From positions 2,273,001 through 2,337,000 of the forward strand of contig NZ_JBBOUK010000001.1 in assembly GCF_038006045.1 (NCBI RefSeq): a stretch of 64,000 nucleotides of DNA, read 5' to 3'. The position numbers and the translations under genes are program-made. Below, one piece after another: positions 32,366 through 33,351 of the stretch. Below the pieces are notes generated by a model. That model ran no database searches and had not been told where the DNA came from. It saw only the letters and a list, made by a program, of their open reading frames with translations. This stretch comes from Exiguobacterium sp. FSL W8-0210 (GTDB taxonomy: Bacteria > Bacillota > Bacilli > Exiguobacteriales > Exiguobacteriaceae). The first letter of the stretch is position 1; the number at the start of each line of letters is the position of its first letter.

Positions 32366-33007
32366 TTAATTTTGGTACGTTGCTTCCATCCGATAAATCG
32401 GTTGACCCATTGATGAAAAGCGCTCTTCGTACTCTGTCCGGACGTTATCTTCCGGTTCATTCGCATGTAAATCAAGTGACATCCAGTCGAAGCGCATGCC
32501 GTATGCTGACATCGTCATCAAACTCGATTCGAACAACTTCCGATTATCTGTCTTGAAGTGGATTTGACCCTTCGCCGGTAAAATATCTTCATATGTCGAG
32601 AGGAATGTTTTATACGTCAAGCGGCGTTTCGCATGACGTGTCTTTGGCCATGGATCAGAGAAGTTCAAGTACACGCGGGACACTTCGCCTTTTTCAAAGT
32701 AATCACGTAGGTCTTTTGCATCGACCGTCAAGACGCGAACGTTCGATTGTGGTGTTTCGACCAATTTTTGAACGATCGTCACGGCAACGCTTTCGAATAG
32801 TTCGATCGCGATGAAGTTGATATCCGGGTGTTGGTGCGCCATTCCGGTAATGAAAGCTCCCTTCCCTGATCCCACTTCGATGTAGATCGGGTTATCATTC
32901 TTGAACTCGCTAGCCCATGCCCCTTTAAGAGATGCTGGTTCTGCTATATAGATCGAGGATTGTTCCTTCATATAATCCTGCGCCCATGGTTTATGTCGTA
33001 AACGCAC
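32366..33007 (-). CDS. trmB: tRNA (guanine-N7-)-methyltransferase
   Basis: A 213-residue SAM enzyme that makes m7G46 in the variable loop of tRNA. Motifs: YIEVGSGKGAFI (SAM loop), FIAIELFE, and NFSDPWPKTRHAKRRL, the family hallmark. The start is probably GTG 33007, with AAAGGATG upstream. In B. subtilis it is adjacent to ytmP; here a small gene and the als operon lie between. Confidence 0.96.
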   Translation of the reverse strand: MRLRHKPWAQDYMKEQSSIYIAEPASLKGAWASEFKNDNPIYIEVGSGKGAFITGMAHQHPDINFIAIELFESVAVTIVQKLVETPQSNVRVLTVDAKDLRDYFEKGEVSRVYLNFSDPWPKTRHAKRRLTYKTFLSTYEDILPAKGQIHFKTDNRKLFESSLMTMSAYGMRFDWMSLDLHANEPEDNVRTEYEERFSSMGQPIYRMEATYQN

Positions 33008-33183
33008 TATCGTTCATCCTTTCCAAACTTAAATTATCCGCAGATAAGTTTATCATGATTCGGGTAATTATATAAGAACTTCTTCGTTTCCTATCGAAGA
33101 ATGTTCAGCAGTTCGTCACTTGAGAAATAGTGAGCATTCTAATACACTTAAGGTACGTAAGAACCGAAAAGGAGGGCTATACT

Positions 33184-33285
33184 GTGGATGATTTCTTGAT
33201 TAGTTGGGCATCTCCCATCGTTCTCGTCTTGGGAATCACTGCTTTGTTCGTCTGGGCGACTTTCGGAAAAGTCGACGTCGAATAA
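33184..33285 (+). CDS. 33-residue small membrane protein, CydS-like
   Basis: A GTG-started ORF of 33 codons behind a near-perfect AAAGGAGG (8-nt gap): MDDFLISWASPIVLVLGITALF then a polar end (FGKVDVE). One transmembrane helix. Length, the FLI..A.P start and the DV.E end resemble CydS, the small third subunit of Bacillales cytochrome bd oxidase, usually encoded just after cydAB. No cydA or cydB is in this window. The call rests on my memory of CydS sequences. A strong terminator follows, so this is a monocistronic gene. Confidence 0.6.
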   Translation: MDDFLISWASPIVLVLGITALFVWATFGKVDVE

Positions 33286-33293
33286 GGGCAATC

Positions 33294-33330
33294 TCTGTAC
33301 CTTGTGTAATCATACACAAGGTACTTTTTT
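33294..33330 (+). terminator. Terminator after the CydS-like gene
   Basis: GTACCTTGTGTA ATCA TACACAAGGTAC followed by seven T. Confidence 0.92.
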
Positions 33331-33351
33331 TATTTTCTCAATGATTTTAGG

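Follow-up and report, generated by a model that had tools for sequence, protein, structure and literature searches.

Introduction

The closest described counterpart of the gene reported here is CydS of Geobacillus thermodenitrificans (5DOQ/5IR6 chain C; PF22282), a single helix that lies alongside CydA and for which the available text of a published account suggests a CydX-like role in stable assembly (PMC8951039). According to the available part of another study, the expression plasmids encoded neither Geobacillus CydS nor E. coli CydH/Y, and both nevertheless co-purified (PMC8324918). This points to a workable supply of the small subunit in trans. The CydH/CydY (YnhF) protein of E. coli bd-I is also a small bd oxidase subunit whose gene lies outside the cyd operon, but in the same account, as far as its accessible passages go, it occupies a different CydA site, has homologues in Proteobacteria and is not CydS (PMC8951039). 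A few orphan homologues of CydX are described in Proteobacteria, for example in Cellvibrio japonicus, and the Cellvibrio orphan complements an E. coli cydX deletion, as the accessible part of that report states (Allen et al. 2014, PMC4325964).

Here we describe a small gene in a window of 64,000 nucleotides from Exiguobacterium sp. FSL W8-0210 (contig NZ_JBBOUK010000001.1, positions 2,273,001 to 2,337,000 of the forward strand). Its product is very probably CydS, supplied in trans to a cytochrome bd quinol oxidase of the Geobacillus type, of which it would be the one-helix accessory subunit. It shares with the Geobacillus protein its one helix, its 33 residues and an N-terminal FLI..A pattern, but the Exiguobacterium gene lies ~245 kb from cydAB and adjoins trmB instead of being placed 3' of cydAB. 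Like the orphan CydX genes it would encode a small bd oxidase subunit away from cydAB; unlike them, going by the part of the CydX report that is available, it belongs to another small-subunit family in another phylum, and it is found beside trmB in all searched genomes of two families rather than in a few cases. Because orphan CydX is already known in Proteobacteria, the unlinked CydS is a known subunit in a variant gene order and does not amount to a novel type of system. Titles and abstracts, searched with thin coverage of subscription journals and without Guptibacillus as a query name, contained no unlinked CydS in Exiguobacterium or Guptibacillus. One bd enzyme, similar to YthAB, is named for E. 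sibiricum in the accessible part of a report in which no word beginning with cyd occurs (PMC2615787), and in another paper the name Exiguobacterium occurs only within references about a rhodopsin (PMC8509429).

Results

A conserved 33-codon gene beside trmB

The features of the locus are as follows.

33184..33285, + strand: cydS, single-helix CydS protein of 33 residues with a GTG start (translation; PF22282 match; conservation and purifying selection in 19 genomes)
33167..33176, + strand: ribosome-binding site AAAAGGAGGG (sequence)
33120..33148, + strand: promoter-like TTGAGA-N17-TACACT (consensus scan; motif kept in the genus)
33297..33331, + strand: intrinsic terminator-like hairpin and T-run of cydS (12-pair stem, loop of 4, T-tail)
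32366..33007, − strand: trmB, divergent neighbour and conserved landmark of unlinked cydS (Pfam Methyltransf_4)

Read from its GTG start, the plus-strand frame at 33184-33285 translates into the 33 amino acids VDDFLISWASPIVLVLGITALFVWATFGKVDVE. The ORF is intact in all 19 genus genomes, where it starts with ATG, GTG or TTG, and it is open as well at 19/19 loci of the sister genus, by which we mean the second genus under the same family code. AGGAG stands within 16 nt 5' of the start codon in every one of the 19 genus genomes. The promoter-like sequence is a single hit, which is chance level for that stretch (shuffle mean 1.6); the same motif is present in 19/19 genus genomes, ending 34-39 nt 5' of the start codon. 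The stem and loop of the terminator-like hairpin occupy 33297-33324 with the T-run 3' of them, and comparable stems were read by eye 3' of the ORF across the genus alignment.

For the codon comparison, the start codon and the 35-residue form of one genus locus (L007) were excluded. Fifteen different 33-codon sequences from the genus give 105 pairs, in which third codon positions account for 1411 of the 1987 differences, pS is 0.575 and pN 0.084 (pN/pS 0.147). For the 49 pairs whose pS falls between 0.05 and 0.6, dN/dS is ~0.10. The stretch 33184-33285 is a conserved protein-coding gene, and cydS is under strong selection at the protein level in the genus.

To the left of cydS lies trmB, whose product is 99% identical to the E. 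indicum TrmB, and to the right lie alsS (TPP enzyme domains) and alsD (acetolactate decarboxylase). The gene adjoins trmB in 19/19 genus genomes, at 19/19 sister-genus loci and at 15/15 loci of the Guptibacillus family. The neighbour alsS is found in 18/19 genus genomes, being absent from this place in genome G006, and at 0/19 sister-genus loci; it is not a constant neighbour, and the alsSD neighbourhood is therefore incidental. A function of cydS tied to alsSD is ruled out on the same ground.

The product is well supported as CydS by sequence

The Pfam CydS model PF22282 matches the ORF protein with 31.3 bits, above the cut-off of 25. When the whole window genome was searched in six frames with this model, the cydS place scored 24.9 bits (25.1 with its frame) and the next best place 11.3 bits (E 1.71); in the 14 control genomes no place exceeded the cut-off. 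A PDB search with the single ORF sequence returned no CydS and a weak match to 8ydm_N (E 0.61), so profiles were needed. A profile of 16 unlinked proteins matched Geobacillus CydS (PDB 5DOQ_C/5IR6) with E 7.5e-5, the next match being at 1.2, and a mixed profile with linked CydS added reached E 3.2e-14 for the same structures. The match of the unlinked-protein profile to 5DOQ_C spans residues 1-22 only, implying that the C-terminal part of the Exiguobacterium protein has drifted. The nine linked CydS included in the alignment share only 28-42% identity with the window protein, and an NCBIfam search with the latter returned no family. In the sister genus CydS has a different N-terminus, MSTLDQ..., and this form is also present in records named E. 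alkaliphilum and E. sp. SL-9. Taken by sequence, the identification of the ORF product as CydS is well supported.

The preliminary description had proposed a small GTG ORF with a ribosome site and its own terminator, encoding a CydS-like one-helix protein. The ORF and its ribosome site (AAAAGGAGGG at 33167-33176, with AGGAG throughout the genus) proved real, the terminator corresponds to the terminator-like 12-pair hairpin and T-run at 33297-33331, and the CydS likeness is borne out by the Pfam score and by the profile match to 5DOQ_C.

cydS lies apart from cydAB throughout the Exiguobacterium family

The window genome has one cydA (C1:2059904-2061199, minus strand), and cydS, at C1:2306187, is ~245 kb away from it. 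A six-frame search found one CydS above noise in this genome. The position directly downstream of cydB, which is usual for CydS and not required, is not that of Exiguobacterium cydS: in the window genome, cydB is followed by a hairpin and T-run (seen by eye) and then by a TrkA-type gene. Within about 390 nt 3' of cydB, a hydrophobic small ORF was found at none of the 19 genus loci, the window genome included, where 384 nt were covered, and a CydS profile scan of the same 19 loci, which make up its scope, gave at best E 3.7 (6.2 bits). At 3 of 20 sister-genus loci, a 34-residue hydrophobic frame (MIPVFFCIVF...) starts 6-7 nt 3' of cydB; a hidden cydS was looked for here too, and the Pfam CydS model gave no match at this place.

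All 38 family genomes searched have a CydS match at E up to 0.05, which in 18 of them is above the Pfam cut-off in the six-frame search. Each of the 38 also has cydA. By their coordinates, genus cydS and cydA are far apart or on separate contigs, and the 19 sister-genus cydS loci contain neither CydA nor CydB. cydS is apart from cydAB in all 38 Exiguobacterium-family genomes searched. One sister-genus genome, G024, has a second, more divergent cydAB (L250, G024:C6:30630-31928) and one CydS match only.

The gene had been described beforehand as an orphan away from cydAB and beside the alsSD operon. Its orphan status holds, the sole cydA being distant and no cydS lying 3' of cydB; the search for a second cydS beside cydAB, proposed at that time as a way to refute the idea, found none over noise, and the ORF is strongly conserved. 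The position beside alsSD is correct for 18/19 genus genomes and fails as a meaningful context, given 0/19 in the sister genus and trmB as the constant neighbour.

Gene order in other Bacilli and in the Guptibacillus family

Of 398 evenly sampled Bacilli genomes, 117 contain CydS (E up to 0.001) and 332 contain cydA (E up to 1e-20), and all 117 CydS-bearing genomes also have cydA when the two listings are compared by eye. At most 19 candidate places were scored per genome in the CydS search, so we draw no inference from genomes without a match. Beyond the Exiguobacterium family, 81 genomes carry a total of 83 CydS places. At 79 of these, CydS lies directly 3' of cydB in the same orientation, its stop codon 95-345 nt (median 125) beyond that of cydB, in agreement with the initial expectation that cydS normally follows cydAB.

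The remaining four places are unlinked. Three of them (G270, G216 and G354) are below the Pfam cut-off and are probably not CydS. The fourth (L128, G168:C1:3476385-3476465) scores 43.3 bits and has no CydB in its 3-kb locus; genome G168 has two CydAs of other types, 33% and 43% identical to the window-genome CydA, and an almost identical CydS occurs in its relative G072, where it is located 3' of a cydAB type that is apparently absent from G168. The G168 CydS, which lacks its CydAB type, is likely a relict. Since G168 retains a strong CydS in this situation, the presence of CydS alone is no proof of use. Genome G219 has a second CydS (L104, G219:C11:94730-94807) 3' of a CydB match that starts at residue 50, and its 3-kb locus contains no match to CydA; this is perhaps a decayed second cydABS.

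We also scanned named trmB loci for CydS. Among the 80 listed of at least 590 such loci, CydS was present in four Exiguobacterium genomes, two Guptibacillus-like genomes and one MAG; the record "Alkalihalobacillus macyae" is now Guptibacillus hwajinpoensis. All 15 genomes of the Guptibacillus family contain exactly one CydS (E up to 0.01), and in all 15 cydS is divergent from trmB, no CydA or CydB lies in the 3-kb locus, and the CydA of the genome shows 61-63% identity to the window-genome CydA. In MAG G400, CydS is ~1 kb from trmB, the match crossing a single TAA at its end. On a different contig of this MAG lies a CydA 63% identical to the window-genome CydA. In G411, a CydA match is split into two adjacent pieces (G411:C3:93587-94898). 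In two bacterial families, then, every genome examined has an unlinked cydS.

CydB trees

In an IQ-TREE analysis of 36 CydB rows, chosen for diversity out of 133, the unlinked CydBs (Exiguobacterium family, Guptibacillus family and G400) form one group with a support of 90/94, which is below the starred level. A first FastTree placed the unlinked CydBs in one clade (0.993), and a second FastTree with more rows did not recover a single clade of them. A single old separation of cydS from cydAB in this CydAB branch is likely, being the simplest reading of the trees.

Discussion

The preliminary description left a choice between CydS and a new small membrane protein. Pfam, the profile search, the presence of CydS in 38/38 family genomes and the retained CydAB type favour CydS over the latter. 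The retention of a CydS-type CydAB in genomes with an unlinked cydS supports a probable role in the bd oxidase. According to this model, cydS would form a small transcription unit by itself, running away from trmB and ~245 kb distant from the only cydAB; the helix of CydS, once inserted in the membrane, would pack against CydA as in the Geobacillus structure, and CydS would help the assembly and stability of the haem-bearing subunit.

The same gene might be a former CydS that now serves a different membrane complex, that is, a small membrane protein of CydS ancestry. Its separation from cydAB, its drifted sequence and the different N-terminus in the sister genus would fit such a change of partner, but these genomes contain no further CydS above the cut-off, the matching CydAB is retained in the genomes searched, the CydS protein is under strong selection and, outside the family, CydS sits 3' of that CydAB type at 79/83 places, so that we regard the idea as improbable. 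G168, with its CydS lacking the corresponding CydAB type, resembles what a relict of an old cydABS operon with no present role would look like. For the Exiguobacterium gene, we find this explanation very hard to sustain, because dN/dS is ~0.10 in the genus and the ORF is intact in 19/19 genus, 19/19 sister-genus and 15/15 Guptibacillus-family genomes. We give almost no credence to the idea that the ORF is no separate protein gene but serves alsSD as a leader peptide or as a feature of its transcript: the ORF does lie upstream of alsS on the same strand, but a terminator-like hairpin stands between the two, and G006 and all 19 sister-genus loci have the gene without an adjoining alsS.

A CydS acting in trans would predict the subunit make-up of the Exiguobacterium and Guptibacillus bd oxidases. 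A CydS search restricted to the region behind cydAB would miss both groups, and their bd oxidases would then seem to be without the subunit. Genes of 33 codons that start with GTG or TTG probably tend to escape annotation, so that other orphans of this kind may have gone unnoticed. The lasting separation of cydS from cydAB in two families also offers a natural test of small-subunit supply and control in trans.

The separate promoter-like and terminator-like sequences only suggest the independent regulation of cydS that had been raised at the outset. A further step, which we consider unlikely, would be a separately controlled assembly switch, in which the supply of CydS and not that of CydAB sets the amount of active bd oxidase. 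Under such a switch, the genus cydAB promoter region would be governed through its conserved palindrome-like elements, and the cydS promoter would be different and possibly constitutive. Two blocks, TTTTGTGAARDAAATCACG and TGTGAACAATTTGTTACAT, occur in the genus cydA upstream regions (L001, L036-L053) at 19/19 loci, a perfect count that arises by construction, as the blocks were taken from the genus cydA alignment. These palindrome-like blocks, which may be Rex/FNR-like, are possible candidate sites for a redox regulator. Sought as a regulatory motif that cydA and cydS might have in common, they match by raw count at best 11-13/19 letters in the 250 nt upstream of cydS, and 11-14/19 letters in the sister-genus cydA regions, so that the sister genus does not retain them. 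In the window genome, an IS30-type transposase-like ORF was seen by eye immediately 5' of the cydA promoter region (L035:8552-9490).
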